From Streptomyces griseus subsp. griseus (GTDB taxonomy: Bacteria; Actinomycetota; Actinomycetes; Streptomycetales; Streptomycetaceae): 64,000 nucleotides of DNA. Both the position numbers and the translations under genes were made by a program. Below the pieces are notes generated by a model. The model saw only the letters and a list, made by a program, of their open reading frames with translations. It was not told where the DNA came from and did no database searches. The stretch lies in the NCBI RefSeq assembly GCF_003610995.1, contig NZ_CP032543.1, forward strand, positions 434,001 to 498,000, read 5' to 3'. Below, one piece after another: positions 8,071-57,222 of this stretch; position 1 is the stretch's first letter; the number at the start of each line of letters is the position of its first letter.

Positions 8071-9396
8071 TCACTTGCGGCCGGGGGTCCAGTTCATGCC
8101 CCAGCCGTAGGCGGCGTCGATGGTGCGCTGCGGGCTGACCCCGCGCTCGGGCACGAGGTAGCGGGCCTCGCGCTGCACGGTGAGGTCGCCGCCGTTGTTG
8201 GTGATCAGTGCGAGCGCGCAGACCGTGGAGGGCACGGTGCACTCGTCGAGGGAGAAGTCGATCGCCGCGCCGTTCTGCGGCTGGAGGGTGACCGTGGCGT
8301 GCAGGTCGGCGAAGCTGCGGGCGCCCTCGTAGATGGTGACGAAGATCAGTACGCGGCGGAGCAGGTCCTTGCGGTCGAGGTTGACGGTCATGTTCTCGCC
8401 GGTGGAGAGCGCACCGGTGCGGTCGTCGCCGTCGAGGTGGATGAAGGGCGGCTGGGCCAGTGAGCCGAAGGCGTTGCCGAGGGCCTGCACGACCCCTTGC
8501 GCCCGTCGGTGAGCTCGTACAGCGCGCAGAGGTCGAGGTCGAGGTCCCGTGCATCGCGACGGCCCGGCCGAGCTTGGCTCCCCAGCCCTTGAACTGCTTG
8601 CGTACCTCCCAGTTGAGGTTGACGCGCAGCGCGCCGGAGGAGCCGCCCTGCTTGGCGAGGGAGACGGACGGGGCCTCCTTCGTCAGCGTGACCTTGGAGA
8701 GCCGTACCGGCTGCGGGGATGCGGGGCGGGCGGTACGGGAGGTGCCATCGGGGCGGGCGGGGCGGCGTGGACGACCGGGGCGGGCGCCGGAGGAGGCGTG
8801 GGGGCCTGCGGTGCGGGCGCGGGCGCCGGGGTGGCCGGCCACGACGGCGCGGGGGCGGGGGCTGCCTGCTGCGGTTCGTCGACGGAGATGCCGAAGTCCG
8901 TCGCCAGACCTTCGAGACCGGTGCTGTAACCCTGCCCGACCGCGCGGAACTTCCAGGCGCCCTGGCGCCGGTAGAGCTCACCGAGGATGAACGCGGTCTC
9001 GACCGTGGCGTCCGTGGAGTCGAAGCGGGCCAGCTCGGCGCCGCCCGCCGCGTCCACGACCCGCACGTACAGGCCGCCGACCCGGCCGAAGCTGCCACCG
9101 TCCGCCGAGGCCGCGACCACGATGCGGTCGATCGCGGGCTCCACCCGGCCGAGGTCGACGAGGAGGGTGTCCGTGACCCCGTCGCCGACGGGCCGCTTGC
9201 CCTCGTGGCGGACGGCGCCGGAGGCATGGGCCGGCTGGTTGTAGAAGACGAAGTCGGCGTCGCTGCGGACCTTGCCCGCCACCAGCAGGAGTGCGGAGCC
9301 GTCGACATCGGGGGTGCCCGGGGCGGCCCGCCAGCCCAGCTCGACGCGCACGGTGCCCGCAGGCACCGGAACGTTGGTTCCCTTTTGCATGGTCAT
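8071..9396 (-). CDS. TerD family protein with two TerD domains, frame interrupted by three 1-nt deletions
   Basis: This encodes a tellurite-resistance-type TerD protein, a calcium-binding stress family. Domain 1 begins [14 protein letters not shown] and runs to about residue 155, a Pro/Ala-rich linker follows to about residue 225, then a second TerD-like domain with [11 protein letters not shown] and [11 protein letters not shown]. The reading frame breaks at three G/C runs: GGGG 8715-8718, CCC 8546-8548 and CCCC 8493-8496 (plus strand). Adding one base to each restores one continuous protein of about 442 residues, and the final segment is back in the starting frame. The protein is probably intact in the organism, with the breaks as consensus errors; decay is the alternative. 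Confidence 0.85.
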
Positions 9397-9526
9397 GCTC
9401 GCCCCATCACGATTCCGGCTGCCCGCAGGCCTTGCCCCACAACCTAATCCCTCCACCGAGCCGTCACCGGAAGGGGTCCGACGGCTACCGCTCGCCCGTG
9501 TGGGGACGCAGGACCACGAGGGGGTC

Positions 9527-9738
9527 CTACGCGGCCGCCACCACGGCGAAGGGGAACCGGTCGAGTTCGCGACAGAGGGCGACGTCGTCCGGGCGCGCGC
9601 CAGGTCTTCGTCGGCGCGCCCGTCCTCGCCGGTGACCAACGGGGCGTGGCGGGCCTTGAGCGCCAGGGCCTCGTCCGGCGAACCGGCGGGAACAATCTCC
9701 TCCGCTCCCCGGGCAAAGGCCACGGTGTAAGCACGCAT
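9527..9738 (-). CDS. Small hypothetical protein, one apparent 1-nt frameshift
   Basis: An acidic protein of about 70 residues beginning [19 protein letters not shown], which I do not recognise. Read straight, the frame is lost after about 47 residues at the GGG run 9591-9593. Adding one base joins it to a natural C-terminus, [15 protein letters not shown], with a TAG at 9527-9529. Codon use before and after the junction is typical of the window. An in-frame GTG at 9759 is an alternative start. It lies 130 bp upstream of the TerD gene on the same strand and could share its transcript. Confidence 0.55.
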
Positions 9739-10311
9739 GACATCGGCCACGACGGCCACGGACAGGACTTCGGACAGTTCGGGTATGGAGAGGAAACGTG
9801 TTCATCCGGTGATGATCGCGCGCTCCCGGGCCACCCCCCAACAGCATTACCGCGGCGGCAGGTTCACCGCACGGGCATTCAACCGGTTGGGAGGACAACG
9901 GAGTCGGGGACGGAGACAAAGGCAAAGGCGTCCCGGCAGCGCGTGGGAGAGGCTCCCCTCTTCACCGGCAGGCCCGCCATCGGGCGGCGCGCAAGCCCTG
10001 GTACGACGCCGTGTGACCCCCGCCGTCCAAGTCCCGCGTTACCGCGGGAAATGCCGTCCGCAGCAGATTCCGGGCACGGCGCCCGGCCCCCGCCGCCGCA
10101 GCTCCGCGTCCTGGCGCCTGGCGCACGGGGGTGGCCGTTTGTAGCCCGCTCGCCACTTCTCGTTAACAATACGGGCCCGGCAAGGAATGCCCCTGATAGG
10201 GGACGGCTTAGCGATGTCCTGACGGTCCGGGCCGACAGAACCGGCGTAAAAACTGATGACCCTAAGATGGGGGCTCCCCAACCAGCGCATCGTGGGCTTA
10301 ACTTGGGTGCC
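9739..10311. other. Intergenic region upstream of the DUF6643 gene
   Basis: No convincing reading frame lies in these 573 bases. A short perfect hairpin (TCCCGCG, loop TTAC, CGCGGGA) occupies 10032-10049. The region from about 10160 to 10290 is less GC-rich than its surroundings and contains CCCCTGATAGGGG near 10191-10203, so it probably holds the promoter and untranslated leader of the downstream gene. I could not assign a known riboswitch. Confidence 0.4.
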
Positions 10312-11695: not shown

Positions 11696-11718
11696 GAACG
11701 CGGGACCCGGGGGGAGGC

Positions 11719-19113: not shown

Positions 19114-19917
19114 ATGCCGATCCATCAACCGCAGCAACGCTCCGACGCCGCACCGGGCGAGACCCTGGGCGTACAGCAGGCCGAGGCCGCGCTCGTGGAG
19201 CACTACCCGCGCCTGGTCCGGCTCGCCTATGTCGTGCTGCCGCCCGCGCTGGGCCGGCACCGCCGGGTCCTGGCCGCGCACGGCGCCGTGCAGCGGGCGC
19301 TGCCCGGGGCCGGGACCGCCCCGGACCGGATGCGCGTACCCGCCCAGTCCCGCCGCTCCCCGGAGGCGGCGGGGGCTCCTGCGAACGCTCCGTACGCGTG
19401 GATGCGGCTGCGGGTGCTGCGGACGGCCCTGGCGTACGAGCGCAGGCCCCGCTGGTGGCCCGGGCGGCTCCCGGCACCGGCCGCGCTGCGGCCGGTGCTG
19501 CCGGTGGTGTGGGGGCTGCGGCTCTTCCCCCGGGCCGGCGGCGTCGACGAACTGGCCCTGGACCGGGCCCTTTCGGGGGTGCCTGGCACCGTACGGGCCG
19601 CGTTCGCGCTCCAGTTGCTGGACGGGATGGCGGACTCCGGGGTGCGGGAGCTGCTGGCCGAGGCGGGGGCGGACGATCCGGCGGGGGCGGTGCGCCGGGC
19701 GGCCCGGCTGGGGAGGCCGGACCGGGCGGGGTCCCAAGTGCTGCTGCGGTCCGGGGAGTTCGACCCGTGCACCGTGCAGACCCGGCCGAGCGACCTGCTG
19801 CGGCGCCGGAACCGGATGCGGGCGGCGGCCCTCGCGGCGGCGCTCTGCGTGGTGGCGGGCACGCTCGCGGTCGCCGCCGAGAAGGGGTACGGGACGAGGC
19901 CCCGGGGGCGGGTGTGA
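19114..19917 (+). CDS. Hypothetical protein with sigma-factor-like N-terminus and C-terminal membrane helix
   Basis: A 267-residue protein whose N-terminal half (EAALVEHYPRLVRLAYVVLP, then AYAWMRL-type helices and DRALSGVPGTVRAAFALQLLDGM) resembles the region 2/region 4 organisation of ECF sigma factors without clear DNA-binding residues. One hydrophobic helix follows near residues 235-255, then the frame ends 12 residues later. The downstream frame starts inside a GTGA overlap and lacks a signal peptide. Adding one base at the GGGG run 19884-19887 fuses the two smoothly, so this is probably the cytoplasmic and membrane part of one protein. Confidence 0.72.
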   Translation: MPIHQPQQRSDAAPGETLGVQQAEAALVEHYPRLVRLAYVVLPPALGRHRRVLAAHGAVQRALPGAGTAPDRMRVPAQSRRSPEAAGAPANAPYAWMRLRVLRTALAYERRPRWWPGRLPAPAALRPVLPVVWGLRLFPRAGGVDELALDRALSGVPGTVRAAFALQLLDGMADSGVRELLAEAGADDPAGAVRRAARLGRPDRAGSQVLLRSGEFDPCTVQTRPSDLLRRRNRMRAAALAAALCVVAGTLAVAAEKGYGTRPRGRV

Positions 19918-21101
19918 CGGTCCCGGTCCTCGATCCGTCGGCCCTGCTGCGCACGGCGGCGGAGCAGTGGGCGGACACCTCACGGATCGACTTCACCGCC
20001 TGGCCCGTACGCGGTGACCGGAGGGACGACGCCGAGCTGCTGGGGCGCGCGCTGCGGGCCTGGTCCGAGCCGTCGGAGAACGTGCAGGTGTCGACCACGC
20101 CCGGCACGGTCGACGTGCCGCCCGCGCAGCCGCCCCGGCTGCTGTTCGCGGGTGAGGTGGACGGGGCGGCCGTGGTGCTGTTCCAGGACGGCGGGGTCCG
20201 GATCGTGCGGTACGCCGAGCCACTGGCGGGCGGTGGCGGGGCGGCGCTGGACTTCGCCCGGACCGACGACGCGGATGTGACCACGGCGGCGGCCGTGGTC
20301 GTGAGCCGCACGGGCGAGAGGGCGCGGTTCCTGCTCGCCCCCTGGATCTCCGAGACCACCACCCGTGACCTGCTCGCGCCGGACACGCCCGGACGGCCGC
20401 TGGAGGTGGGCCCGGACGGGATCACCGCCCCGGTGGGACGCCCGGCGGCGGGCGGTGCCTGTGACGCCTGGCCGGTGCTCCAGCTGCGGTCCTCCGAGCG
20501 CATCGTGGAGAAACACGCGTTCCTGGTGACCGACCTGGGTGACCTGGCCCCGGCCCATCTGACGTACACCCCGAAGCCGGGCGGTGGCGCACCCGCCCGG
20601 CAGCCGCGCGAGGCGACGGGCCCGGAGGCGCTGCTCGCCTGGGCGCGTACGGCGTGTTCCCTGCGGGCCCTGTCGGGCTCGGGGGTGCGGGCGGTCAACA
20701 ACTGGGCGTTCGCCGAGCAGCAGCTGCCCGAGGGCGAGGCGTCGGCCGAGTGGCTCTGCACCCGCGCCGACACCTGGCGCGGGCCCGGCCGGGTGCTGGT
20801 GCAGTTCCTCCAGCCCGCCGCCTCCCCCACCGCCCCGGCCGCGGTCGTCGCCGACCGGGACGACACCGCCCTGTGCAGCAGGTTCGGCCAGCACATCCTG
20901 GCGGGCACGCACTGGAAGGCCGCCTCCGGCCGGTGGTACGTCCTGGCGGCGGGCAGCCGGGCCGTCAACCGGATCGAGGCCGCCGGGCAGGTGAAGAGCA
21001 CGGCGGGCGGCCCGACGCTGGCGGTACGGGCGCCGCGCGACGCCTCCGTGCGGCTGACGGCCGGGCTGCGCGGGGGCGGGACGCTGGCGGCGGTGCGCTG
21101 A
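19914..21101 (+). CDS. Hypothetical protein, probable extracytoplasmic domain of the preceding gene
   Basis: A 395-residue soluble protein of unknown function (LLRTAAEQWADTSRIDFTAWP, then VDGAAVVLFQDGGVRIVRY). It contains several isolated cysteines, including CDAWPVLQL and SLRALSGSG contexts, which suggests an oxidising location, yet it has no signal peptide or membrane helix of its own. The GTG at 19914 overlaps the preceding stop as GTGA, which could be genuine translational coupling. The alternative, which I favour, is that an apparent 1-nt deletion at 19884-19887 splits one protein of about 660 residues with a cytoplasmic helical part, one membrane helix and this outer domain. Confidence 0.72.
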   Translation: MTVPVLDPSALLRTAAEQWADTSRIDFTAWPVRGDRRDDAELLGRALRAWSEPSENVQVSTTPGTVDVPPAQPPRLLFAGEVDGAAVVLFQDGGVRIVRYAEPLAGGGGAALDFARTDDADVTTAAAVVVSRTGERARFLLAPWISETTTRDLLAPDTPGRPLEVGPDGITAPVGRPAAGGACDAWPVLQLRSSERIVEKHAFLVTDLGDLAPAHLTYTPKPGGGAPARQPREATGPEALLAWARTACSLRALSGSGVRAVNNWAFAEQQLPEGEASAEWLCTRADTWRGPGRVLVQFLQPAASPTAPAAVVADRDDTALCSRFGQHILAGTHWKAASGRWYVLAAGSRAVNRIEAAGQVKSTAGGPTLAVRAPRDASVRLTAGLRGGGTLAAVR

Positions 21102-25852: not shown

Positions 25853-27067
25853 TCAGGCGAGGACGGCGAGCGGGTCGTCGAGGACCGGCTGCCAGGCCAG
25901 TTCGGCGGCGCCGACCAGGCTGTTGTGGGTCAGCGTGCAGGACAGGATCGGCACGCTGCCGCTGCGGCCCCAGAGACTGCGGTCGGCGACGACGGCCCGC
26001 AGCCGCTCCGGGTCCGCCTCCAGCAGGTCGCGGTGGAGGCCGCCGAGGATGATCCGGTCCGGGTTGAGGATGTTGACGAGCCCGGCGAGGCCCAGCCCCA
26101 GGCGGTCGATGAGCGCCTCGGCCGCGTTGCGTACGTCGGCGTCCCCGTACTCCGTGCGCAGCAGGTCGCCCGCCTGCTTGAGGAGCGACTCCTCCGGGCC
26201 CGGGTCGCGGCGCGCGGTGGTGAGGAAGGCGAGCGGGTCGGTCTCCACGTCGAGGCAGCCGCGTCCACCGCAGTGGCAGGGGCGCCCCTCGGGGTTCACG
26301 GTGAGATGGCCGACCTCCAGCGCGAGCCCCGAACTCCCGCTGTGAAGACGGCCGTCGAGGACCAGGGCCCCGCCGACGCCCCGGTGGCCGGTGGCGACGC
26401 AGAGGAGATGCTGGGCGCCGCGTCCGGCCCCGTGCCGGTGCTCGGCGAGCGCGGTGAGGTTGACGTCGTTGCCGGTGAAGGCGGGGCCCGTGATGCCCGC
26501 GTCCCGTACGCAGGCGGCGAAGATGTCCCGGACCGGCGAGCCCGCGGGCCAGGCGAGGTGCAGCGGGTTGAGGGCGGTGCCCTCGGGTTCGGCGACCGCC
26601 GAGGGGACGGCGAGCCCGGCGCCGACGCAGCGCAGCCCGCTCTCGCGGAGCAGCTCCGCCCCTGCGGCCACGACCTCGCCGAGTACCTGGGCGGGGTCGG
26701 CCATCACGGCGACGCAGCCGGGTGCCGTGGCGACGATCCGGCCGCCGAGCCCGACGAGGGCGGCCCGGAAGCCGTCGGCGTGGACCTGGGCGGCGAGGAC
26801 GACCGGGCCGGCCTCCAGGACGGAGAGCCGGTGCGAGGGGCGGCCCTGCGAGCCAGCCGCGGAACCGGGGCTGGAGTCGACCCGGATCAGCCCCAGCGCC
26901 TCCAGCTCGGCGGCGACCGCCCCGGCGGTGGCCCGGGTGACGCCCAGCTCGGAGGTGAGGACGGCGCGTGTGGGGGCACGCCCGGTGTGGACCAGCTCCA
27001 GGGCGGGTCCGAGCGCGCTGCGGCCCCTCTCCAGCTTCGTCCGGGTGGTGGTCGCCTTGCCGTTCAT
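25853..27067 (-). CDS. ROK family transcriptional regulator
   Basis: A 404-residue ROK repressor. The N-terminal winged helix (residues about 15-75, PTRAVLTSELGVTRATAGAVAAEL) precedes a sugar-kinase-like ROK domain with the zinc-binding motif CHCGGRGCLD near residue 265 and EVGHLTVNPEGRP before it. ROK regulators bind DNA and are released by a sugar or sugar phosphate. The ATG at 27067 is the only start giving the usual N-terminus. It is divergent from an MFS transporter, and a perfect inverted repeat at the transporter start is its most likely operator. Confidence 0.9.
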   Translation of the reverse strand: MNGKATTTRTKLERGRSALGPALELVHTGRAPTRAVLTSELGVTRATAGAVAAELEALGLIRVDSSPGSAAGSQGRPSHRLSVLEAGPVVLAAQVHADGFRAALVGLGGRIVATAPGCVAVMADPAQVLGEVVAAGAELLRESGLRCVGAGLAVPSAVAEPEGTALNPLHLAWPAGSPVRDIFAACVRDAGITGPAFTGNDVNLTALAEHRHGAGRGAQHLLCVATGHRGVGGALVLDGRLHSGSSGLALEVGHLTVNPEGRPCHCGGRGCLDVETDPLAFLTTARRDPGPEESLLKQAGDLLRTEYGDADVRNAAEALIDRLGLGLAGLVNILNPDRIILGGLHRDLLEADPERLRAVVADRSLWGRSGSVPILSCTLTHNSLVGAAELAWQPVLDDPLAVLA

Positions 27068-27176
27068 GAGGGCGAGTCTCCCATGATCCGGGGGTGGCCC
27101 GGACGCGGAAGGAGCCCGCCGGGGGATGGGTTGCCGGGGACTCCGGGACGGGTGGCACACGCCTCCGTCAGCTCTG

Positions 27177-27232
27177 TTGCGTCCGGCGTCCGCCCACCCC
27201 TATGCTGAGTTTGTGCCGCAACTAAACAAACT
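27177..27232 (+). promoter_or_regulatory. Promoter of MFS gene with overlapping inverted-repeat operator
   Basis: TTGCGT (27177-27182) and TATGCT (27201-27206) are spaced 18 bp, and the -10 ends 6 nt before GTG 27213, which predicts a leaderless mRNA. The perfect inverted repeat AGTTTGT (27208-27214) / ACAAACT (27226-27232) with an 11-nt spacer covers the start codon. Occupation by the divergent ROK protein would block initiation directly. Confidence 0.6.
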
Positions 27233-39307: not shown

Positions 39308-39574
39308 GCAAGTCTCCTCTTCGAGCGGCTGTCAGGTCCCGGGTGAGCGTGGTCCGCTCATGTGGCCGCCCGGCAGCCACCGGGCGGCCGACAGCCCCGA
39401 GTTCGCGTGCACGGGCGATGAACACCATCGGCACGGGACGGACAGGCAGGGAGAACTCCTGACGAGACACACAGGAGGGCGTCTTGACAGGTCCAGACCA
39501 ATCACGCTTGGGTGATGGTCCGTCCCGTCGGCCCGCCGGGTACCCGGTGCGCCGCGCCGAAGGAGTGAGCAGCC

Positions 39575-40459
39575 CTGCATCGGATCAAGAGGTTCCTGAC
39601 CGTACCGGCGGCCCTGGCCGCGCTCGCCACCGGCTTCTTGACCGCGACCCCCGCCGCGTCGGCCGCCTCACCCGGCGCCGAGCCGTGCGCCCCGCTCCAC
39701 AGCGCCTCGGTCGACTACCGCGCCGGAGACACCGTTTCGCACCACGGACGCAATTGGACCGCGAAGTGGTGGTCCCGCAACGAGAATCCGGGTGCCGGGT
39801 CCGCCTGGTCCGACCGGGGCGCCTGTACCGGAGGTGTCTCCGACTTCGTCATCAGCCCGGAGCGGTTCGACGAGATCTTCCCGGACCGCCACCCCTTCTA
39901 CACCTACCAGGGCCTGATCGACGCGCTGCACGCCTACCCGCACTTCGCCAACACCGGGACGCCGCAGACCCGGGCCAGGGAGGCGGCCGCGTTCCTGACG
40001 CACGCGGACTTCGAGTCGGTGGGGCTGAAGTACGTCAAGGAGATCAACGAGGCCAACTACTGGCGCAAGTGCGACGACACCCAGCCCTTCGGCTGCCCGG
40101 CGGGGCGGGAGGCGTACTACGGGCGGGGCCCGATCATGTTCAGCTGGAACTTCAACTACAAGGCCGCCGGGGACGCCCTCGGACTCGACCTGCTGAACGA
40201 TCCGTGGCTGGTCGAGCGGGATCCGTCCGTCGCCTGGCGGACAGCGCTGTGGTACTGGAACACCCAGAACGGCCCCGGCACCATGACCTCGCACGAGGCG
40301 ATGGTCGGCGGCGCCGGGTTCGGTGAGACGATCCGTTCGCTCAACGGAGCCCTGGAGTGCGACGGCGGCAACCCGCAGTCCGTGGCCGCGCGCGTGCAGC
40401 GGTACGAACGCATCACCGGCATCCTCGACGTGGCACCGGGGTCCGGCCTCACCTGCTGA
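39575..40459 (+). CDS. GH19 chitinase with N-terminal chitin-binding domain, probable CTG start
   Basis: A secreted chitinase of about 294 residues. The signal peptide is RIKRFLTVPAALAALATGF then ATPAASA. A CBM5/12-type chitin-binding module follows (YRAGDTVSHHGRNWTAKWW), then the GH19 domain from FVISPERFDEIFP. The two catalytic Glu positions remain (DFESVGLKYVKEIN, nine residues apart), though the usual HETGG reads FESVG and GPIQLSWN reads GPIMFSWN. No ATG, GTG or TTG precedes the signal peptide after an in-frame TGA at 39566; CTG 39575, 9 nt after AAGGAG, is the best start. TTG 39638 would remove the signal. Confidence 0.85.
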   Translation: MHRIKRFLTVPAALAALATGFLTATPAASAASPGAEPCAPLHSASVDYRAGDTVSHHGRNWTAKWWSRNENPGAGSAWSDRGACTGGVSDFVISPERFDEIFPDRHPFYTYQGLIDALHAYPHFANTGTPQTRAREAAAFLTHADFESVGLKYVKEINEANYWRKCDDTQPFGCPAGREAYYGRGPIMFSWNFNYKAAGDALGLDLLNDPWLVERDPSVAWRTALWYWNTQNGPGTMTSHEAMVGGAGFGETIRSLNGALECDGGNPQSVAARVQRYERITGILDVAPGSGLTC

Positions 40460-40534
40460 GGATCCGGAGGCCGCTCCGCCCCTGGGCGAAGGCGCACGCT
40501 CCGACGACCTGCCGGCGCAGCGGTATGCCGACGA

Positions 40535-41998
40535 TCAGCGAGTTCCCTGGGGGACGGCGTGCGGCTTCGGCCGGTGGACCGTCACCTCCCCGTGGGCCGC
40601 GAGGGCGGTGGGCAGGTCGGTCGGGGCGCCCCGGAGCACGGCGTCGAGGAACGAGAGCGAGGCGGCGGCGGTGATGCGGTGACCCTCCGTGCGGCCCAGG
40701 GAACCGACCACCCCGGATACCGGCGGCAGGTAGAGCGGGGCGTCCGTGAAGGTGAGATGCGCCGTGCCGGGCACGGTCAGCCGGTAGTTGGTCGCGGCGC
40801 CGAGTTCCAGCACGCGGGTGAGCCGCGGCAGGTAGTCCGGGTCGGTCCCGGGGCCGATCTCCTGGGTCAGCGCCAGTACGGGTTGCCCGAGGTGCCCCCC
40901 GGTGGGGCCGTGCGGGAAGCCGTCCAGGTCGATGACCGCGTCGAACCGCCGGTCCTGGCGGGCCGCCTGCAGAGCGGCCGCGCCCCCGATAGAGTGACCG
41001 GTCACCGCCACCCGGCCGGTGTCGAGGCGTCCGGCCAGGATGCCGTCGGCCTCCCCCCGGCCCATGCGCGTCAGCCTGGTGAGCACGGTGCGCAGGTCCG
41101 CGGCGCGGGTGCGTGTCCAGCCCTCCGCCCGTGCCGCGTCCTCCTCCGGGTCGCCGGTCGCGGAGACCCGCGTACGCAGCGTGCGGCCGTCCGCGAGGAC
41201 CACGGCGGCGGAGTCGTAGGGGTGGTCGACCGCGGCCACCACGTAGCCGTGGCTTGCCAGTTCCTCCGCCCAGGCGGTGTTCTGCGTACGCACTCCGCCC
41301 AGTCCGGGGGAGAACAGCACCACCGGGAAGCGTCCGCCCTCTGGGGCGGCGGGCGCGCCGGGCACCGCGTGGCTCCGGGCGTGCGGCAGACCGTCGAGCA
41401 GGAAGCCGGGGACCCCCGCGTAGCCGGCCAGCGCCGAGGACACCGTGCGCGACTCGGCCTCGGTACGCCCGAGGTACGGCATCCGCGGCGCGTCCGGGGC
41501 GCTCCGCCCGGCGGGATACCAGAGCTGTGTCACCAGCGTGCGCCCCTCGTCGTCCCGGCCGTCTCCTTCGGGGCGCGTGGAGAACTCCAGGACCTGGGTG
41601 CCGACCGGGAAACGTCCTGAGGGCTCGGGGAACTCGGGTACGGGCAGGGCCCACGCGGAGACCGGGCCCGAGGCGATCAGGGCGGCGCACACCGCGGACC
41701 CCGGCAGAGCCAGCCACCACCGGGCACGCCACGGAGTGCGCCCGGTACGCCGCCGGACCATGGGGACGAGCGCGAACGGCGCCGCGACGGCCGCCGCGGC
41801 CACCACCGGAACCATCTGCCATCGCAGCTCCCCGACGACGAGGACGGTCACCGACCCCACGAGCAGGGCGCCGGCGGCGAGCGCGGCCGGGCCGCGGAGG
41901 CGGTCGGGAAGCCAGCGGGCCAGTACGAGGGTGATGGCGCCGAACACGGTGAGGGCTTCCGGGACGGACAGCGGGAGACCGGTGATCGCTGAGGGCAT
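40535..41998 (-). CDS. Membrane-anchored alpha/beta hydrolase, platelet-activating-factor acetylhydrolase-like
   Basis: A 487-residue protein with four hydrophobic helices in residues about 10-120, followed by an outward-facing hydrolase domain. VVLFSPGLGG is the oxyanion region, VTGHSIGGAAALQAA near residue 333 holds the nucleophile Ser, DLDGFPHG the acid region and PGTAHLTFTD the catalytic His. This is the PAF-acetylhydrolase/lipase pattern of actinobacteria, acting on lipid esters. ATG 41998 is preferred; GTG- or ATG-type starts up to 42034 are also in frame. It is divergent from the HELGH protein gene. Confidence 0.87.
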   Translation of the reverse strand: MPSAITGLPLSVPEALTVFGAITLVLARWLPDRLRGPAALAAGALLVGSVTVLVVGELRWQMVPVVAAAAVAAPFALVPMVRRRTGRTPWRARWWLALPGSAVCAALIASGPVSAWALPVPEFPEPSGRFPVGTQVLEFSTRPEGDGRDDEGRTLVTQLWYPAGRSAPDAPRMPYLGRTEAESRTVSSALAGYAGVPGFLLDGLPHARSHAVPGAPAAPEGGRFPVVLFSPGLGGVRTQNTAWAEELASHGYVVAAVDHPYDSAAVVLADGRTLRTRVSATGDPEEDAARAEGWTRTRAADLRTVLTRLTRMGRGEADGILAGRLDTGRVAVTGHSIGGAAALQAARQDRRFDAVIDLDGFPHGPTGGHLGQPVLALTQEIGPGTDPDYLPRLTRVLELGAATNYRLTVPGTAHLTFTDAPLYLPPVSGVVGSLGRTEGHRITAAASLSFLDAVLRGAPTDLPTALAAHGEVTVHRPKPHAVPQGTR

Positions 41999-42080
41999 GG
42001 GCTCATCGTCCGGGCGGGCGGCACCCTGCCGCATCGGCCTGACGTCGCGGTCCGGTGCGACCTGAGACGCATACGGAGGT

Positions 42081-42793
42081 GTGCAGGATCAGCCTGTACG
42101 GGTATACGTCGACCGGCGTCAGACGGTGCTCCCGTCCTCGGGCCCCGTCCCTGCGGACTTCGCCGGCATCCCGGCACAGGTCGAGGAGCCGGTCGGGCGG
42201 GTCTGCATGGTGATGGGGGGCGACCCCGGTGACGTACGCGTGCGGCGTTTCGACCGCGCCGACGAAGCGTCCGTTGCCCTGCGGAGCGGCGGCCGCAGGC
42301 ACCGGACGGTCGGCAGGCACCACCAAGCCGATGGTCACGCCGTGATCGAGCTGGACCTCCGCGAGGCCGGGCAACCGGCTGTGCTCACGGCCATCATCGC
42401 CCACGAGCTCGGCCATGTCCGTCTGCTCGACGAGGACCGTACCCAGGGTCTCGATGTCGACCACGAGAGGCTGACCGACCTGGTGACGGTCTTCCTCGGC
42501 ATGGGGTTCTTCACCGCCAACGCCGCCTACACCTTCACCAAGTCGGTACAGAGGTTCTCCGTCCTCCCTCTGGGCGACCTCACCGAACGGATGCTCACCG
42601 GAACCGCCTTGGACCCCACCCACCACCTCGGCTATCTCACCGAGCGCCAGTTCGGCTACGTCCTGGCGTGCTACTGCCTGCTCCGGTGCGAAACAGATCC
42701 GCCCTGGCCCCTCGGCTGGAACCCGGCGCCCGGGCCGCGCCGCAACAGGGGCTGCGGTATCTCCACCGTCGCCCGCCCGCGAACCGCGACTGA
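42081..42793 (+). CDS. HELGH metallopeptidase-like protein, one apparent 1-nt frameshift near the end
   Basis: A protein of about 237 residues with the zinc-protease motif in TAIIAHELGHVRLL near residue 115, followed by DHERLTDLVTVFLGMGFFTANAAY, a conserved third-ligand-like region, and LTERQFGYVLACYCLLR. It is a conserved actinobacterial protein of unknown role. Read straight, the end is unnatural. Adding one G at the GG of 42706-42707 gives a C-terminus ending GLRYLHRRPPANRD with a stop at 42791-42793, which looks like family members. GTG 42081 is very close to its GGAGG, so the start is provisional. Confidence 0.7.
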
Positions 42794-42840
42794 ACGGCGC
42801 ATCCCACTCATCGGCCCCAGGGGCATGACCTCGCCCGACC

Positions 42841-42856
42841 CTGACCGATCGGTCAG
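42841..42856. promoter_or_regulatory. TetR operator CTGACCGATCGGTCAG
   Basis: A perfect 16-bp palindrome ends 12 nt before the ATG of the TetR gene. Its TGACCGATCGGTCA core is the classic form of TetR/AcrR operators, so autoregulation of the TetR-MMPL unit is likely. Confidence 0.75.
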
Positions 42857-42868
42857 CTACCATGACGC

Positions 42869-43417
42869 ATGCCTCGTCCGCGTTCCGAGATGCGTCGTCA
42901 CATTCTCGATGCCGCCCTGCGCCTGTTCGCCCACCACGGCTTCAAGGGGGCTTCGTTGCAGGACATCGCGGCTGAGGTGCCGTGCTCGAAGGCCTCCCTG
43001 CTCTACCACTTCGCCGAGAAGGAAGCGATCCTCACCGAACTGCTGACGCCGCCGGCCGAGGGGCTCTCCGCCCTCAACGGCCAACTGGACGCTCTGGAAG
43101 GCTCGCACGCGGTGGAACCGGCCGTGACGGGATATGTCGGCCTCGCGCTGCTGTTCCACCTGGAACTCAAGATCATCTTCGCGGAGCTGCCGCAGATGCT
43201 CGGACATCCCGCTCTGGCGGTCATCCCTCCTGCTGTCGACCGGCTCGCCGACGCGCTGGCGGGCCGCTCGCGGGAGCCCGGCGCACTCGTCTCGGCCCGC
43301 ATGGTGATCGGCGGGGTGGCGGTAGCGGTCGCCGGCGGCGTCGATGTCCCACCCGACGTGATGCGCGACGAACTGATCCGAGGGGCGCGCAGAACCCTCG
43401 GGCATCCTCACAGCTGA
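42869..43417 (+). CDS. TetR family transcriptional regulator of the adjacent MMPL exporter
   Basis: A 182-residue repressor. The N-terminal helix-turn-helix is at residues about 5-52 (ILDAALRLFAHHGFKGASLQDIAAEV, then SKASLLYHFAEKEAIL). The C-terminal half is a helical ligand-binding domain. The ATG at 42869 lies just behind a perfect operator-like palindrome. The MMPL transporter starts 38 nt after its stop, so regulator and exporter form an operon in which the pump's substrate probably acts as inducer. Confidence 0.9.
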   Translation: MPRPRSEMRRHILDAALRLFAHHGFKGASLQDIAAEVPCSKASLLYHFAEKEAILTELLTPPAEGLSALNGQLDALEGSHAVEPAVTGYVGLALLFHLELKIIFAELPQMLGHPALAVIPPAVDRLADALAGRSREPGALVSARMVIGGVAVAVAGGVDVPPDVMRDELIRGARRTLGHPHS

Positions 43418-43455
43418 GACAGGCTGTGCAACCGAAGAGAAAGGCGCCGCTTCGC

Positions 43456-45621
43456 ATGGCTGTTCTCCTGTACCGGCTCGGCCGGCTGTCCTTCCGCCGT
43501 CGAGGGCGGGTACTCGCCCTGTGGCTGCTGCTGCTCGCGCTGCTCGGTGGCGGCGCGATCGCCTTCAGTGCACCCGCCACCACCGAGTTCTCCATACCCG
43601 GCACCGAGTCCCAGCAGGCCTTGGACTCGCTCGCCCGGGAGTTCCCGCAGGCGGGGGGTGCGACAGGCACGATCATCGTGGCCGCACCCGAGGGTGAGAA
43701 GCTCACTCCCGCCGCCGTGGCCCCGGTGGTCGCGGAAGCGGCCGAGGTGCCCGGTGTCCTCGCGGCCATCGACCCGTTCGAGGCCCGGGCGCTCTCGCCG
43801 GACGGACGTTACGCCCTGGTCCAGGTGCAGTTCGACTCGGTAGCCGACAGCGTCACCGACGCGCAGCGGGAGTCGTTCACCGAGGCAGGCGCGTCCGCCG
43901 AGGGGCTCCGGGTGGAACACGGGGGCGAGATCATGCGGGGCGCCCCCGAGATCGGCTCGACCGAGATCATCGGTGTCGGTGTGGCGGCGCTCGTGCTGGT
44001 CCTCACGTTCGGCTCGCTCGTGGCGGCCGGGATGACGCTGCTCAATGCCCTCGTCGGGGTGGCCGCAGGCATGGCCGGTCTCTTCTCCCTCAGCAGCATC
44101 GTCGAACTGACCAGCACGGCGCCCATTCTGGCGCTCATGCTGGGCCTGGCCGTGGGCATCGACTACGCGCTCTTCATCACCTCCCGCTACCGGCAGTACC
44201 TCGCGGACGGCATGGAAGGGGAGGAGGCCGCCGGGCGGGCTGCCGGTACGGCCGGATCCGCTGTCGTCTTCGCCGGTGCCACGGTCGTCATCGCGCTCGC
44301 GGGACTCGCGGTCGCCGGCGTCCCCTTCCTGACGGTCATGGGTCTCGCCGCAGCCGCCACGGTCGCCCTCGCGGTACTGGTCTCCCTGACCCTGCTGCCG
44401 GCCGTCCTCGGATTCGCGGGCGTCCGTGTCCTGCCCCGCGCGCGGCGCACGCAGGACCCCGCGCCCTCGTCCGCCGGTACCGGAACGTCCTTCGGCTTCC
44501 GCTGGGGCCGGGTCGTGGCACGGCTGCGCGTCCCCGTCCTCCTCGTGGGCGTCGTGGGCCTCGGCGCACTCGCCCTCCCCGTACAGGACATGCGTCTGGC
44601 CCTGCCCGACGCGAGCACCGAAGCGGCCGGTTCACCCAACCGCGAGGCCTACGACCTGACGACCGAGGGGTTCGGCGAAGGCTTCAACGGTCGCCTCGTC
44701 GCCGTCGTCTCGGCGGCCGACGCGCAGGCGACCGCACAGGCGGCCAAGGAGGCCACCGCGCTGATCTCGGACACCGACGGCGTCCTGGCCGTCGCCGCCC
44801 CGCAGCTCAATGAGCGGGGCACGACCGCCCTGCTGGCCGTGATCCCCAAGACGGGGCCCACCGCCGCCGCGACCGAGGACACCGTGCACGCGATCCGCGA
44901 CCGGGTGGCGGGCGTTCAGGACGCCGACATCGCGTTGACCGGGGTGACCGCCGTCGGAATCGACGTGTCGGAGAAGCTTGCCGCCGCCCTGCCGGTCTAT
45001 CTGCTGCTCGTCGTGGGGCTGTCGGTCCTGCTGCTGATGCTCGTCTTCCGGTCGGTCCTGGTACCGCTGAAAGCCGCCCTCGGCTTCCTGCTCACCATCG
45101 GTGCCACTTTCGGTATCACCGTCGCGATCTTCCAGGAAGGGCATCTGTCGCAGCTGGTCGGCCTCGACACCCCTGGCCCGCTGGTGAGTTTTCTGCCCAT
45201 CCTCCTGATCGGGATCCTCTTCGGTCTGGCCATGGACTACGAGGTCTTCCTCGTCTCGCGGATGCGGGAGGACTTCGTCCACGGAACCGAGGCGCGCCAC
45301 GCAGTCATCAGCGGCGTCGGCCACAACGCCCGGGTGGTCACCGCGGCGGCGATCATCATGACCGCCGTCTTCGGCGGATTCGTGTTCATGCACGACCCCG
45401 TGATCAAGTCCATCGGATTCGCCCTCGCCATCGGCGTTCTCATCGACGCCTTCGTCGTCCGCATGGCCTTGGTGCCCGCGGTCATGCACCTTCTGGGCCG
45501 CGCCGCCTGGTGGCTGCCCCGCACTGTCGACCGGGTCCTGCCCGACCTCGACATCGAGGGCGAGCGGCTCAACCAGGCGATTCCCGAACAGCGACCGGAA
45601 ACAGAGCTCGTGAAGTCCTGA
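43456..45621 (+). CDS. MMPL family RND transporter
   Basis: A 721-residue inner-membrane exporter with the duplicated RND layout: one helix near residue 20, an outer domain (about 40-170), five helices (170-310), another helix near 370, a second outer domain (about 390-520) and five C-terminal helices. Family motifs GLAVGIDYALFITSRYR and GILFGLAMDYEVFLVSRMRE carry the conserved Asp-Tyr pairs of the proton path. MMPL proteins export lipids or hydrophobic metabolites using proton motive force. It is the second gene of a TetR-regulated operon and ends in a hairpin. Confidence 0.93.
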   Translation: MAVLLYRLGRLSFRRRGRVLALWLLLLALLGGGAIAFSAPATTEFSIPGTESQQALDSLAREFPQAGGATGTIIVAAPEGEKLTPAAVAPVVAEAAEVPGVLAAIDPFEARALSPDGRYALVQVQFDSVADSVTDAQRESFTEAGASAEGLRVEHGGEIMRGAPEIGSTEIIGVGVAALVLVLTFGSLVAAGMTLLNALVGVAAGMAGLFSLSSIVELTSTAPILALMLGLAVGIDYALFITSRYRQYLADGMEGEEAAGRAAGTAGSAVVFAGATVVIALAGLAVAGVPFLTVMGLAAAATVALAVLVSLTLLPAVLGFAGVRVLPRARRTQDPAPSSAGTGTSFGFRWGRVVARLRVPVLLVGVVGLGALALPVQDMRLALPDASTEAAGSPNREAYDLTTEGFGEGFNGRLVAVVSAADAQATAQAAKEATALISDTDGVLAVAAPQLNERGTTALLAVIPKTGPTAAATEDTVHAIRDRVAGVQDADIALTGVTAVGIDVSEKLAAALPVYLLLVVGLSVLLLMLVFRSVLVPLKAALGFLLTIGATFGITVAIFQEGHLSQLVGLDTPGPLVSFLPILLIGILFGLAMDYEVFLVSRMREDFVHGTEARHAVISGVGHNARVVTAAAIIMTAVFGGFVFMHDPVIKSIGFALAIGVLIDAFVVRMALVPAVMHLLGRAAWWLPRTVDRVLPDLDIEGERLNQAIPEQRPETELVKS

Positions 45622-45638
45622 GAGGGGGCCAGCAGACC

Positions 45639-45657
45639 CCGCCGGGAACTACGGCGG
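45639..45657 (+). terminator. Hairpin behind the MMPL gene
   Basis: CCGCCG (45639-45644) and CGGCGG (45652-45657) pair with a 7-nt loop, 17 nt after the stop. The stem is short, so this is a moderate candidate. Confidence 0.4.
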
Positions 45658-45812
45658 TCGGGTGTGACCTGCGCGCCGCTGAGGAAGGGCCCTTGGCGTA
45701 GACACCGATATGGCGGTGGCCCCCGGGTTCAGCCTGGCGGGCCCAAGTCCCCTCGGCGGCGATGGCCCACGCGCCCCTGGTCGACCGAACGGTCCCGGAT
45801 CTGGGACTCCCA

Positions 45813-45864
45813 AAGATCTGTCTCCCATCCGTCTCCCATGGGAGACGGATGGGAGACAGATCTT
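45813..45864. repeat. 52-bp perfect palindrome
   Basis: The sequence from AAGATCTGTCTCCC to its mirror GGGAGACAGATCTT is self-complementary over all 52 bases with no loop; the centre is at CCCA/TGGG (45838/45839). Each arm itself contains two CTCCCATCCGTCTCCC-type subrepeats. It is longer and less GC-rich than terminators nearby. It may be a fused pair of transposon ends, a recombination site or a cruciform-forming element. Confidence 0.85.
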
Positions 45865-45885
45865 GCTAATCAGGGCTGGCCACGA

Positions 45886-45984
45886 CTAGCTGAAGCCAAG
45901 CAGGGCCAGGTTTCGGAGCCCATAGCAGCAGGTGGGACGCCGACCTGGCCTTTTGCAGACCCCACCGTTGATCCAGACGATCAC
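45886..45984 (-). pseudogene. Truncated start of a P-loop kinase gene
   Basis: From GTG 45984 the frame reads VIVWING, the same opening as the P-loop/Nudix fusion at 37152 (VIVVWINGAFGAGKT), then diverges into a Cys/Arg-rich out-of-family tail and stops at 45886. A GGGGGG run upstream of the GTG would serve as ribosome binding site. Only the first strand survives; Walker A and everything after it are lost. It marks an ancestral related gene cut by deletion or insertion. Confidence 0.5.
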
Positions 45985-46211
45985 GGTTCCCCCCTTCGTA
46001 GCCCCCTGCGACTTGCCCGCAACACCCTGCCGGGGAAACCCCGCGGTGGCGACGGCGTTGCCGGGATGGGGGGATCCGGACCGGCATGAAGGCCCGATGG
46101 TACGAAGCCGAATTCGGGGGCACCCGTATCCATGACGGACAACGCTCGTTGAACAGCTAATAACCAGGCCTACGGCATGGGCTGGCGGCACAGGACAACT
46201 GGGGGTGCGCC

Positions 46212-46388
46212 GTGCGGCGGACAATTCTCGAACAGTTCCCGGCAGGAGATCCGCGCGGCAGCCGTGCGGCCGAGGAGTTCGCGGCCGCCCGCCGTGGCGA
46301 GGGTCTGGCGGCGGAGGTCGTGATGAATCTGGACCAGGACGTCTTCCTGGTGGTCGTACCGCAGCAGCCCGCGAACGCGGGGCGCTGA
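46212..46388 (+). CDS. Short hypothetical protein
   Basis: A 58-residue frame, MRRTILEQFPAGDPRGSRAAEEFAAARRGEGLAAEVVMNLDQDVFLVVVPQQP in outline, with helix-then-strand character and codon use like the rest of the window. I do not recognise it. GTG 46212 has only a G-rich stretch upstream. It could be an intact small gene or the C-terminal piece of a longer one lost in the decayed region. Confidence 0.45.
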   Translation: MRRTILEQFPAGDPRGSRAAEEFAAARRGEGLAAEVVMNLDQDVFLVVVPQQPANAGR

Positions 46389-46487
46389 CAGGCCGACTGA
46401 CGGGCCATGAGGTCCCGAGGGAGTGCCCGACGGGCGGGGCGCTTCTGCCAGCTGTGGGGTGCCCGACGGACTGGGGTGGGCTCCCTT

Positions 46488-46780
46488 GCCTGACGGGCGA
46501 GGTATGCGCAGCGGTCTGTGGGCTGCCCTGCCTGACGACCAAGGCGACCGGCTGCCTGCGGGTGGGCGCCCCGCCTCACGAGTAGGTCGTCCGAGGGACC
46601 GTGGGGTGCTCCGCCCGACGTACGGACCGTCCGGCTGCCTCTGGTGGGTGGCCTGCCTGACGAGCAGGGCGCCCGACTGCCTCCGGTGAGTGACCCGCCC
46701 GACGAACAGGGCGCCCGACAGCCTCCCGTAGGTGCCCCGCCTGACGAACGGGGCTCCCACCGAAGCGGGTAGGGGCCTTG
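46488..46780. repeat. Degenerate 42-bp tandem repeats, about seven copies
   Basis: Units beginning GCCTGACGA or GCCCGACGA start at 46488, 46530, 46573, 46613, 46655, 46697 and 46739; spacing is 40-43 bp, mostly 42. The last three are best conserved and share ACAGGGCGCCCGAC-type cores. On the minus strand the unit encodes 14-residue repeats such as SGALFVGRVTHRRQ. The copies have diverged strongly, so the array is old. Confidence 0.6.
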
Positions 46781-46792
46781 CGATCACACCCA

Positions 46793-46818
46793 CCGGAGGC
46801 CGCGCGGCCGCCCTCCGG
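46793..46818 (-). terminator. Hairpin behind glucokinase
   Basis: CCGGAGG (46793-46799) and CCTCCGG (46812-46818) form a 7-bp stem about 28 nt beyond the glucokinase stop. The 12-nt loop is itself self-complementary (GCGGCCGC-like). Confidence 0.5.
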
Positions 46819-46845
46819 GCGAGGACGGCAGTCTGAGGACAGGCC

Positions 46846-52395: not shown

Positions 52396-52575
52396 GACCG
52401 TATCCTCCACGCTCTCGCCGTTTCCGCTTCCCGGAATCAACAATCCGTATAGTGAAGTTATAAGGCCACTCGACCTGCGTCAATGGTCGCCCGGAACGGC
52501 GCTGGGCCGCGCGGTGGGGTGCACCGTGCGGCCCAGGGCGGGGGTGTTGCTGGGTGGTGGGTGTTGTTCGGGGTG

Positions 52576-53538
52576 TCAGTTCTTGCGGGTGTTGATCTCT
52601 TCGGTGAGCTGGGGGACGACGGTGAAGAGGTCGCCGACGATGCCGTAGTCGACGAGGTCGAAGATCGGGGCTTCGGCGTCCTTGTTGATCGCGACGATGG
52701 TCTTGGAGGTCTGCATCCCGGCCCGGTGCTGGATCGCGCCGGAGATGCCCGAGGCGATGTAGAGCTGGGGGGAGACGGACTTGCCGGTCTGGCCGACCTG
52801 GGAGGTGTGCGGGTACCAGCCCGCGTCGACGGCGGCACGCGAGGCGCCCACCGCGGCACCCAGGGAATCGGCGAGGGCCTCGATCAGGGGGAAGTTCTCC
52901 GCCCCGTTGACCCCGCGGCCACCGGAGACCACGATCGCGGCCTCGGTCAGCTCCGGACGCCCCGTCGACTCACGCGCCGTGCGCGCGGTCACCTTCGTCC
53001 CCGTCGCACCCTCACTGAACGACACCGGCAGCGCCTCGACCGCACCGGCCGCCGGGGCCGGCTCCACCGGGGCGGAGTTCGGCTTGACCGTGATGACGGG
53101 AACACCCCTGGAGACACGGGACCGGGTGGTGTAGGAGGCAGCGAACGCGGCCTGCGTGGCGATGGGGCCCTGCTCACCGGCCTCCAGATCGGTGGCGTCG
53201 GTGATGAGGCCCGACCCGGTCCGCAACGCGAGACGGGCGGCGATCTCCTTGCCCTCGGCCGAGGACACCACCAGCACCGCCACCGGCGACACCGCCTCGA
53301 ACGCCGCCTGCAACGCATCCACCTTCGGAACCACGAGATAGTCCGCGAACTCCGCAGCCTCCGCGGCCAGCACCCTCACCGCACCGTGCTCACCCAGCAC
53401 ACCCGCGGTCCCCTGCGCCCCCACACCCAGAGCCACCGCGACCGGCTCACCCAGACGCCGCGCCAGCGTCAGCAGCTCCAGGGTGGGCTTACGGACCGCA
53501 CCGTCCACGTGATCGACCAGAACAAGAACTTCAGCCAT
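52576..53538 (-). CDS. etfA: Electron transfer flavoprotein subunit alpha
   Basis: A 320-residue alpha subunit of ETF, which collects electrons from acyl-CoA dehydrogenases and passes them to the quinone pool. The C-terminal FAD domain has the signature [43 protein letters not shown] and [15 protein letters not shown]. The N-terminal domain pairs with the beta subunit. The ATG is at 53538. etfB lies immediately upstream on the same strand with a 72-nt gap, the usual order. Confidence 0.96.
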
Positions 53539-53610
53539 GACAACGCACTCCAGACAGGAAGAGGAAAGAGACGACAGAAAGGAAGGGGGGGCGGGTGGCC
53601 GTGCGGGCGG

Positions 53611-54396
53611 CTAGATGAACTTCTGGCCCGCGAGGAACTCGGCGAGCTGCTTGCCGCCCTCACCCTCGTCCTTCACGATCGTGCCCGCCGTACGCGCCGG
53701 ACGCTCGGCCGCCGAGTCGACCGCCGTCCACGCACCCGCCAGCCCCACCTCGTCCGCCTCCAGCCCCAGATCATCCAGGTCCAGCGACTCCACCGGCTTC
53801 TTCTTCGCCGCCATGATCCCCTTGAACGAGGGGTAACGCGCCTCACCGGACTGATCGGTCACCGACACCACCGCCGGCAACGACGCCTCCAGCCGCTCCG
53901 AGGCCGTGTCACCATCACGACGCCCGGTCACCACACCACCCCCGACCGCGACCTCCGACAACAACGTGACCTGCGGAACACCCAACCGCTCGGCCAGAAG
54001 AGCCGGCAGCACACCCATCACACCGTCGGTCGAGGCCATCCCGCAGACCACCAGGTCGTAACCGGCCCTCTCCACCGCCTTCGCCAGCACCAGCGACGTC
54101 CCCATCACATCCGTGCCGTGCAGACCATCGTCCTCGACATGAACAGCCCTGTCCGCACCCATCGACAACGCCTTGCGCAACGCGTCCTTGGCATCCTCAG
54201 GACCCACCGTCACCACGGTGACCTCCGCACCATCCGCCGCACCCGCGATCTGCAACGCCTGCTCGACCGCGTACTCGTCCAGCTCCGACAACAGACCGTC
54301 GACATCCTCACGATCCAGCGTCAGGTCATCGGCGAAATGCCGGTCACCGGTCGCGTCGGGCACGTACTTCACACAGACAACGATCCTCAAGCTCAC
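53611..54396 (-). CDS. etfB: Electron transfer flavoprotein subunit beta
   Basis: A 261-residue beta subunit of ETF, binding AMP and forming the heterodimer with EtfA. Conserved features are IVVCVKYVPDATGD at the N-terminus, LDEYAVEQALQI, VVTVGPEDAKDALRKALSMGADRAVHV and the late RYPSFKGIMAAKKKPVE. GTG 54396 has AGGAG upstream (sense strand) and TATGCT further up. It is the first gene of the etfBA operon. The C-terminal 30 residues after the AKKKP segment are typical for actinobacterial EtfB. Confidence 0.96.
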   Translation of the reverse strand: MSLRIVVCVKYVPDATGDRHFADDLTLDREDVDGLLSELDEYAVEQALQIAGAADGAEVTVVTVGPEDAKDALRKALSMGADRAVHVEDDGLHGTDVMGTSLVLAKAVERAGYDLVVCGMASTDGVMGVLPALLAERLGVPQVTLLSEVAVGGGVVTGRRDGDTASERLEASLPAVVSVTDQSGEARYPSFKGIMAAKKKPVESLDLDDLGLEADEVGLAGAWTAVDSAAERPARTAGTIVKDEGEGGKQLAEFLAGQKFI

Positions 54397-54603
54397 GCCG
54401 GCTCTCCTACTGCATCGTCATTTCTGGGCTGCCTTGTTGCACGCAGCATAGGCGCCTTACAGGGCCGTTTCCGGTCGGGCCGACCGGGCTCCCGGCCGAT
54501 ATTACTCGCCAGTACACCCAGTCGCTCACCCCTGAGCAAGCGCTCGCCACTGTGACCTTGCCAACGGTGGAAGCGTCCCCGCACCGCCCTCGGCCGCTCG
54601 CCC

Positions 54604-55660: not shown

Positions 55661-55862
55661 AAGGAGTCAGCACCGGCCGGGCGCTGGACATTCCCGCAGC
55701 TTGGAGGGGGCGCGCACGTGACGAGAATCTCGCGCCCCGGGCCGACCGGGACTGGCCACGGGCCCGCGCATGGGGCACCATCGCCACAATGCCGAAAACC
55801 TACGGCTGCGTAACTTCCGCCGGGAGAACCCTCCCCAGGCACTGAAGAAGGGTCTTCTCCAG

Positions 55863-56584
55863 ATGGCAGAACTCGTCTATCGACCGGTCATCGGCGCCGC
55901 TCGCACACTGTTCAAGGCGCTCGACCTGAAGATCGACACTCAGGGTTCGGAGCACATCCCGAAGACCGGTGGCGCGGTGCTGGTCAGCAACCACATCAGC
56001 TACCTCGACTTCATCTTCACCGGCCTGGGCGCTCTGCCGCAGAAGCGGCTCGTCCGCTTCATGGCGAAGGAGTCGGTCTTCCGGCACAAGGTCTCCGGTC
56101 CGCTGATGCGCGGGATGAAGCACATTCCGGTCGACCGGAAGCAGGGCGAGGACGCCTACGCGCACGCGCTGCGGTCGCTGCGTTCCGGTGAGATCGTCGG
56201 CGTCTTCCCCGAGGCCACCATCTCCCAGTCGTTCACGCTGAAGAGCTTCAAGTCGGGTGCGGCGCGCCTGGCCCAGGAGGCCGGGGTCCCGCTGATCCCG
56301 ATGGCGCTCTGGGGCACGCAGCGGATCTGGACCAAGGGACGGCCGCGCAACTTCAAGCGCAGCCACATCCCGATCACCATCCGGGTCGGCGAGCCGGTGG
56401 AGGCGCCCGCGGACCAGTACGCGGGGCGATCACCCGGCGGCTGCGGGAGCGCGTGCAGGAGCTGCTGGAGGCCGCCCAGCGGGCGTACCCGGTGCGCCCG
56501 AAGGACGCGAGTGACACGTGGTGGGTCCCGGCCCATCTCGGCGGTACGGCCCCGACCCCGGCCCAGGTCCGCGAGCTCGGCTGA
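55863..56584 (+). CDS. 1-acyl-sn-glycerol-3-phosphate acyltransferase-like protein, one apparent 1-nt frameshift
   Basis: A PlsC-type acyltransferase of about 240 residues that esterifies lysophosphatidic acid or a related lipid at the membrane. Motif I is VSNHISYLDF (HxxxxD variant) near residue 42, motif III is GVFPEATIS with EGTR-like function near residue 120, and PLIPMALWGTQ follows. At the GGGG run 56423-56426 the frame breaks. Adding one G gives AITRRLRERVQELLEAAQ and an end VRELG-stop at 56582-56584, as in relatives. ATG 55863 starts the conserved block; an upstream in-frame start is possible. Confidence 0.85.
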
Positions 56585-56599
56585 CCGGATGCCTCCTCC

Positions 56600-56627
56600 G
56601 AGCCCCCGGCGGGTGCCGCCGGGGCTC
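56600..56627. terminator. Bidirectional hairpin between convergent acyltransferase and transglutaminase genes
   Basis: GAGCCCCCGGCGG (56600-56612) pairs with CCGCCGGGGCTC (56616-56627) with one unpaired C and a 3-nt loop. It sits on the end of the minus-strand gene and 16 nt behind the plus-strand stop. Confidence 0.65.
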
Positions 56628-57222
56628 AGAGCTGTGCGGGGAGGTTCCGCCAGAGCTCGGCGCGGTCCCGGGCGTGCCGCAGCGCGCGCAGGATCGCTCC
56701 CGGGGCGTGGCGTGGACGGTCGGATAGTCCACCTCCCCGATCTCCTCCCGTACCGCCCAGGCCAGCCGCTCGGCCCGAGGGAGAACTGCGCGTCGACGCC
56801 CGGCTTGTTGCCCCGGGGTCGACCCGGGCCCAGCGGTCGTGGCCGGGGAGGCGCAGCGCGACCAGGCCGTGGACCACCGGGTTCGTCCCGTCGTCGGCGG
56901 TGAGCCGCTGGTAGCAGAGCCCGGCCGGGATGGCGCGGGCCCGGAGCAGCGCGGTGAGCGCAATGGACTTGGCGTAGCAGATGCCGTTGCGGGTGGCGAG
57001 AACGTCGGAGGCGCGCCAGGTGACGCGTGGATCGCCCGAGTCCGCGGAGTGCGGGATGGCGTCGCGTACGTAAGCGAAGGCGGTACGGGCGTATGTGTAT
57101 GCGTCGTCACCGTCGTGTGCCAGGGCGGCCACGGCTTCCCTGACCACGGGGTGCTCGTGGTCGATGGCCTCGTCGGCTGCCAGATAGGCGGCGATCTCCG
57201 GATGCTGCTGGATCATCTCCAT
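56626..57222 (-). CDS. Transglutaminase-like domain protein, three apparent 1-nt deletions
   Basis: A protein of about 199 residues with a transglutaminase/protease-like domain: RNGICYAKSIALTALLRA holds the catalytic Cys near residue 80 and NPVVHGLVALRLPG the His near residue 118, with the third residue in DRWARVDP. The frame then breaks. Single bases added at GGGG 56815-56818, GG 56772-56773 and GGGG 56702-56705 (plus strand) give PRGNKPGVDAQFSLGPERLA and an ending RAELWRNLPAQL, in the starting frame again. It is therefore probably intact. The start is the ATG at 57222. Confidence 0.85.
   Translation of the reverse strand: MEMIQQHPEIAAYLAADEAIDHEHPVVREAVAALAHDGDDAYTYARTAFAYVRDAIPHSADSGDPRVTWRASDVLATRNGICYAKSIALTALLRARAIPAGLCYQRLTADDGTNPVVHGLVALRLPGHDRWARVDPGATSRASTRSSPSGRAAGLGGTGGDRGGGLSDRPRHAPGAILRALRHARDRAELWRNLPAQL

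Follow-up and report, generated by a model that had tools for sequence, protein, structure and literature searches.

Long-read assemblies are described as retaining homopolymer errors, i.e. net losses of bases in short runs that frameshift genes intact in relatives and that are spread genome-wide (PMC9262707, PMC8812927, PMC12007338). For natural indels in the genus Streptomyces, wild-type mutation-accumulation lines are reported with 147 substitutions and 9 indels (6 deletions and 3 insertions); the indel rate was not markedly altered by loss of NucS (PMC11109965). We examined a 64,000-nucleotide stretch of Streptomyces griseus subsp. griseus (hereafter the window; bases 434,001-498,000 of a single contig, NZ_CP032543.1, of 7,238,194 bases), for which a preliminary description had listed ten breaks in seven genes, each an apparent deletion that adding a single G or C to an existing run would repair, with consensus error as the best explanation. 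Nine of the ten proved one base short as judged by relatives' proteins; they fall in six genes rather than seven, and the tenth, at 9591, belongs to the decayed remnant of a gene. Sequence comparison makes it very probable that these nine breaks are mistakes left in the assembly consensus, and so a matter of data quality instead of biology; in the living strain the genes are most likely intact.

Nine one-base breaks in six genes

Relatives' predicted proteins were aligned to the window with a frameshift-aware protein-to-DNA aligner written for the purpose and tested on made-up sequence. A first pass gave 927 good alignments; a fuller pass used 1,993 distinct relative proteins, 1,101 of which aligned at thresholds of 50% identity and 60% coverage. 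Frame-changing events were accepted ("passing") only after a flank test. Protein sets overlap and genomes share ancestry, so the counts of relatives below are not independent observations. The closest named locus by DNA is that of Streptomyces microflavus JCM 4496, with 86-94% identity across aligned blocks; this ranking is among the named loci found and may leave out records very close to the window.

The TerD-domain gene (8074-9396, reverse strand; PF02342 on its longest piece) lies in three frames and is short by one base within each of the segments 8485-8505, 8538-8592 and 8700-8780. All 26 distinct relatives' proteins spanning site 8493 see the window as one base short, as do all 26 at site 8546 and 23 of 25 at site 8715, where the two that lack the event come from distant sequences, at 51% and 54% identity. 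The best 120 of 5,215 database homologues agree without exception at each of the three sites. At the positions matching 8493 and 8546 relatives have different bases, so that a missing run base is not directly evident there. A stretch around the start of this gene (9394-9408), most of it just ahead of the start and probably non-coding, is also one base short in 16 of 16 relatives' loci aligned at at least 80% identity, several of which overlap and share a genome of origin.

Near the other end of the window two convergent genes are affected. The PlsC-type acyltransferase gene (55770-56581, forward strand; PF01553) is one base short within 56395-56430, and this is seen by all 105 relatives' proteins spanning site 56423. 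The transglutaminase-like gene (56629-57222, reverse strand; PF01841) is one base short within each of 56685-56722, 56764-56792 and 56808-56825; sites 56702, 56772 and 56815 were each called by 66 of 66 spanning relatives' proteins and by all of the best 120 of 2,622 database homologues. Between the two genes lies a terminator-like stem (56612-56628) that is short by one base relative to S. microflavus. This shortage is weakly evidenced: among three aligned loci, L214 and L082, which have identical S. microflavus sequence, display it, and the third, L087, differs by four bases.

Two further genes have one break each. A forward-strand gene at 19171-21098, with no Pfam match and a length of ~649 amino acids in S. 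microflavus, is one base short within 19865-19905 according to 8 of 8 relatives (75.5-91.0% identical) spanning site 19884; a separate 9-base difference lies nearby. The hypothetical gene at 42108-42790 (forward strand) is one base short within 42702-42714, near its 3' end. No good match to the 42706 region was found in the sampled relatives from the genus, and database homologues were therefore used instead. The shortage was seen in 102 of the 120 listed homologues (142 found), the closest of those listed being P0001 (212/221 identical). As for the remaining 18, 11 end before 42735 when more than 15 of their residues remain, 3 end before 42735 near their own end, and 4 continue without a step. 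One homologue, P0011 (Streptomyces sp. NPDC056454), gave one event in each direction, and the protein of that record may itself be shifted. The gene lies in a region, 37374-46827 (~9.4 kb, 2.7 kb in S. microflavus), that has no aligned counterpart at the matching place in S. microflavus and also encodes a phytase, a GH19 chitinase, a PAF-acetylhydrolase-like protein, a TetR regulator and an MMPL protein.

Comparison with relatives' genomes, which the preliminary description had put forward as a check, thus found the frames intact in nearly all spanning relatives at the nine sites. At the eight sites other than 42706 the window is one base long to no spanning protein, and no one-base-long signal at these genes passes, in line with the earlier statement that all changes are deletions. 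That direction is a weak argument when taken alone, because natural indels are also deletion-biased, six against three in the reported lines (PMC11109965). The case is instead carried by near-identical intact copies, by control assemblies and by a probably essential gene.

Intact copies, control assemblies and the alanine racemase gene

Uninterrupted proteins nearly identical to the broken products were found for two of the six affected genes. P0131 (442 amino acids) matches the pieces of the TerD-domain gene at 438 of 439 residues across three frame changes, and P0253 (199 amino acids) matches those of the transglutaminase-like gene at 193 of 196, again across three. The longest contigs bearing them measure 222,754 and 114,749 bases, respectively, so neither comes from the contig studied here. 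Three indels beside one or three amino acid changes are far from the ratio in the mutation-accumulation lines. No in-frame stop occurs in the spanning alignments at the nine sites. A true pseudogene would be marked by nonsense codons together with excess substitutions; stops were found only at 9591. The remaining nine sites differ from pseudogene decay in lacking them and, in the two genes with near-identical copies, in having almost no substitutions.

The comparison was extended by 200 kb surrounding the window and by a 100-kb sample close to 4.6 Mb, for a total of 364 kb or 5% of the genome. Against this genome, 249 S. microflavus proteins (83,091 amino acids) aligned, with 22 passing events: 20 one base short and 2 scored as one base long, 8 inside the window and 14 outside. 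One of the 22, at 9401, is in probably non-coding DNA here. The two events scored as long, both outside the window, are two-base losses at the DNA level. Adding 8727, which failed the flank test, all 23 events relative to S. microflavus are net DNA losses in this genome: 17 of one base, 2 of two bases and 4 larger or mixed. Proteins of Streptomyces sp. ADI96-02 (160 aligned) gave 11 passing events, 8 short and 3 long; the third of the long ones (genome position 4,602,706) was set aside, since the same protein is also one base long against S. microflavus and the event is not specific to this genome.

The control comparisons were almost free of events. This genome's own proteins gave 1 passing event among 253 aligned to S. 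microflavus and 0 among 161 aligned to ADI96-02; S. microflavus proteins gave 0 among 160 aligned to ADI96-02. ADI96-02 proteins gave 1 among 158 aligned to S. microflavus, and this single event is due to the very protein just set aside.

The breaks outside the window span 353-546 kb and 4.60-4.67 Mb of the genome. One of them divides the alanine racemase gene, alr: two matches (L280 and L281; genome 4,604,689-4,605,794) abut at 4,605,381/4,605,390 in different frames and jointly cover positions 3-231 and 235-368 of the 369 model positions. No other alr copy was found in this genome. In Streptomyces coelicolor, alr null mutants are reported to lose D-Ala prototrophy (PMC5943314); by analogy alr would be needed in this strain also, and a strain grown without D-alanine should then not carry the alr break. 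A PcrA-like helicase gene, its family assigned from two pieces of the relative, is broken too. Other genes with breaks outside the window include those for a SulP-type transporter, a C26 peptidase and a Ser/Thr kinase, as well as a carbonic anhydrase-like gene (four bases short in DNA) and a GNAT acetyltransferase gene (two breaks).

Association with G/C runs and clustering

The placement of each loss in an existing G or C run is in part upheld. For 94% of random coding positions a run of at least two is within reach, and runs of two or three are therefore uninformative. Runs of at least four lie within reach of only 13.8% of 20,000 random coding positions and are touched by 14 of the 21 one-base-short events (P = 4e-8). 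In 8 of the 17 net one-base-short DNA events, counted by eye, the corresponding run in S. microflavus is longer by one base; at 8493 and 8546 the claim is weakened by the differing bases in relatives. Homopolymer length spectra compared with those of relatives showed no visible difference.

The events are also bunched, as had been claimed. Among 22 positions in 264 kb (a set that includes the larger losses and two positions regarded as non-coding), 7 neighbouring pairs are at most 300 bases apart, which none of 20,000 simulations matched, whether positions were placed uniformly or sampled from the 2,497 four-base G/C runs. A subset of 16 coding sites, simulated from four-base runs alone, again gave 0 of 20,000; this subset still included an event with a four-base shortage in DNA and another accompanied by a separate loss of 9 bases. 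The first of the two clusters originally described, four sites in 1.1 kb, nevertheless shrinks to three coding sites in ~0.23 kb plus the probably non-coding 9394-9408. GC content is slightly higher near events (0.758 versus 0.724 over 100 bases), too little to account for the bunching. The bunching is thus beyond chance.

A gene remnant at 9591

Site 9591 is a case of true gene decay and not a run error. It lies in a remnant (9500-9801, reverse strand) of a 2-phosphosulfolactate phosphatase-like gene that has lost ~350 internal bases and carries in-frame stops; an intact relative matches PF04029 (2-phosphosulpholactate phosphatase). The genome retains only residues 5-61 and 154-226 of a 228-amino-acid relative, with TGA and TAG stops, and no second copy of the 9500-9801 gene was found in it. 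About 350 net bases are missing relative to each of at least three of ten searched relatives, those listed with both pieces; in these, both gene parts sit elsewhere in the genome, where relatives have the gene intact. Two of seven relatives' proteins do cross 9591 one base short, but in doing so they also skip 119 codons and pass a stop. The remaining five align partially and step one base long at 9645-9651; the remnant thus also contains an apparent gain, which goes against the statement that no insertion occurs. The large internal loss, the in-frame stops and the lack of a second genomic copy are all as in pseudogene decay.

Consensus error and its rivals

Consensus error was retained as the best explanation at nine of the ten sites, given the intact relatives, the near-identical copies, the controls and alr; it was abandoned for 9591. 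Under consensus error, the consensus would have lost a base, often within or beside a short G or C run, and at several sites a run of five in relatives would have been written as four in this record. Such errors would occur about once per 11-12 kb of aligned coding sequence across the sampled chromosome parts, locally bunched. Reads would be expected to show the longer runs, and the bunches would mark places where coverage was poor or polishing failed. The pattern is in keeping with the residual homopolymer errors described for long-read assemblies (PMC9262707, PMC8812927), sharing with them net losses in short runs, frameshifted genes, intact relatives and genome-wide spread. It differs from them in that the runs are short (mostly four as written), the associated runs examined consist of G and C, and the errors are bunched. 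Our literature search on Streptomyces, nanopore and frameshift returned nothing specific, and one on NucS and frameshift returned nothing.

Several observations weigh against consensus error. The case is built on sequence comparison, and the record is a single contig with a completeness rating of 100%. Seven of the 21 one-base-short events touch no run of at least four, relatives carry a different base at several sites so that a run error is not directly readable there, and the 18 of 120 homologues noted above do not display the step at 42706. The four larger or mixed losses among the 23 may be natural. The skew in run length relative to S. microflavus is also mild over all aligned DNA: runs of five are equal at 402 places, shorter here at 11 and longer at 4, and runs of four are equal at 1,599, shorter at 7 and longer at 2.

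Replication slippage favours runs and deletions, and real recent gene loss by slippage in G/C runs, perhaps in an indel mutator, would share both properties with the breaks. The deletion bias of Streptomyces indels also agrees with it, and the slight effect of NucS loss suggests that indels may escape that repair path (PMC11109965). We nevertheless judge real loss very unlikely, since two genes would have taken three breaks each while differing from intact copies by one and three amino acids, the sole alanine racemase match and a PcrA-like gene would be broken, no in-frame stops have accumulated, and the clustering spans two convergent genes. Still harder to credit is a living strain with bursts of real, recent losses of single bases from short G/C runs, at times several in a few hundred bases, such as local slippage-prone repair synthesis might produce, that survives because its population is mixed or because the breaks are bypassed. 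G/C runs can be slippery, and many of the changes are at such runs, which speaks for programmed frameshifting or recoding, with the frame changes translated through; relatives, however, encode the same proteins in one continuous frame there, which leaves no conserved recoding site, up to three changes in the same direction occur per gene, and a probably non-coding site is hit too. The probability of recoding is vanishingly small.

A mixed situation, with consensus errors at most sites and true recent frameshifts at one or two of the nine, is unlikely in our view. The likeliest candidates would be 19884 and 42706, single breaks in genes of unknown function: the former has the 9-base difference nearby and just eight spanning relatives, and the latter lies near the 3' end of its gene in a region lacking an S. 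microflavus counterpart, with 18 of 120 homologues showing no step. Both sites nonetheless have the same direction and size as the others and no in-frame stops, and all eight relatives agree at 19884.

Other signals in the window

The remaining candidate frame changes in the window were rejected. All 11 entries for one-base-long signals failed the flank test; those at 6825-6828 (7 of 7 first-pass alignments) and 27107-27194 were judged to reflect open reading frames of relatives that had been extended too far upstream and that run antisense to the genes predicted at 5985-6770 and 25853-27067, respectively. One-base-short signals at 24400, 29813, 53772, 54397, 55067 and 55601 also failed, and one at 55130 passes in 1 of 8 spanning relatives. 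A signal at 57239-57251, upstream of the transglutaminase start, passes in 2 of 6 and was judged an over-extended start.

Searches of the window for tRNA genes and Rfam families gave no match. A 1.9-kb segment (52496-54408) with two genes for electron-transfer flavoproteins recurs at genome 6,393,906-6,395,817 as a second copy of 99.4% identity; two S. microflavus contigs terminate within this segment, and several other drafts terminate near its right edge.

Implications

The breaks at the nine sites are very probably no real biological feature. Extrapolation from the 22 events in ~249 kb of aligned coding sequence would put the number of falsely broken genes in this record at some hundreds. 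Of the ten breaks reported from the raw sequence alone, nine proved true and one false; real decay, as at 9591, can adjoin artefacts. Claims on gene loss, pseudogenes or biosynthetic clusters that draw on this record would therefore need to be checked beforehand against relatives.

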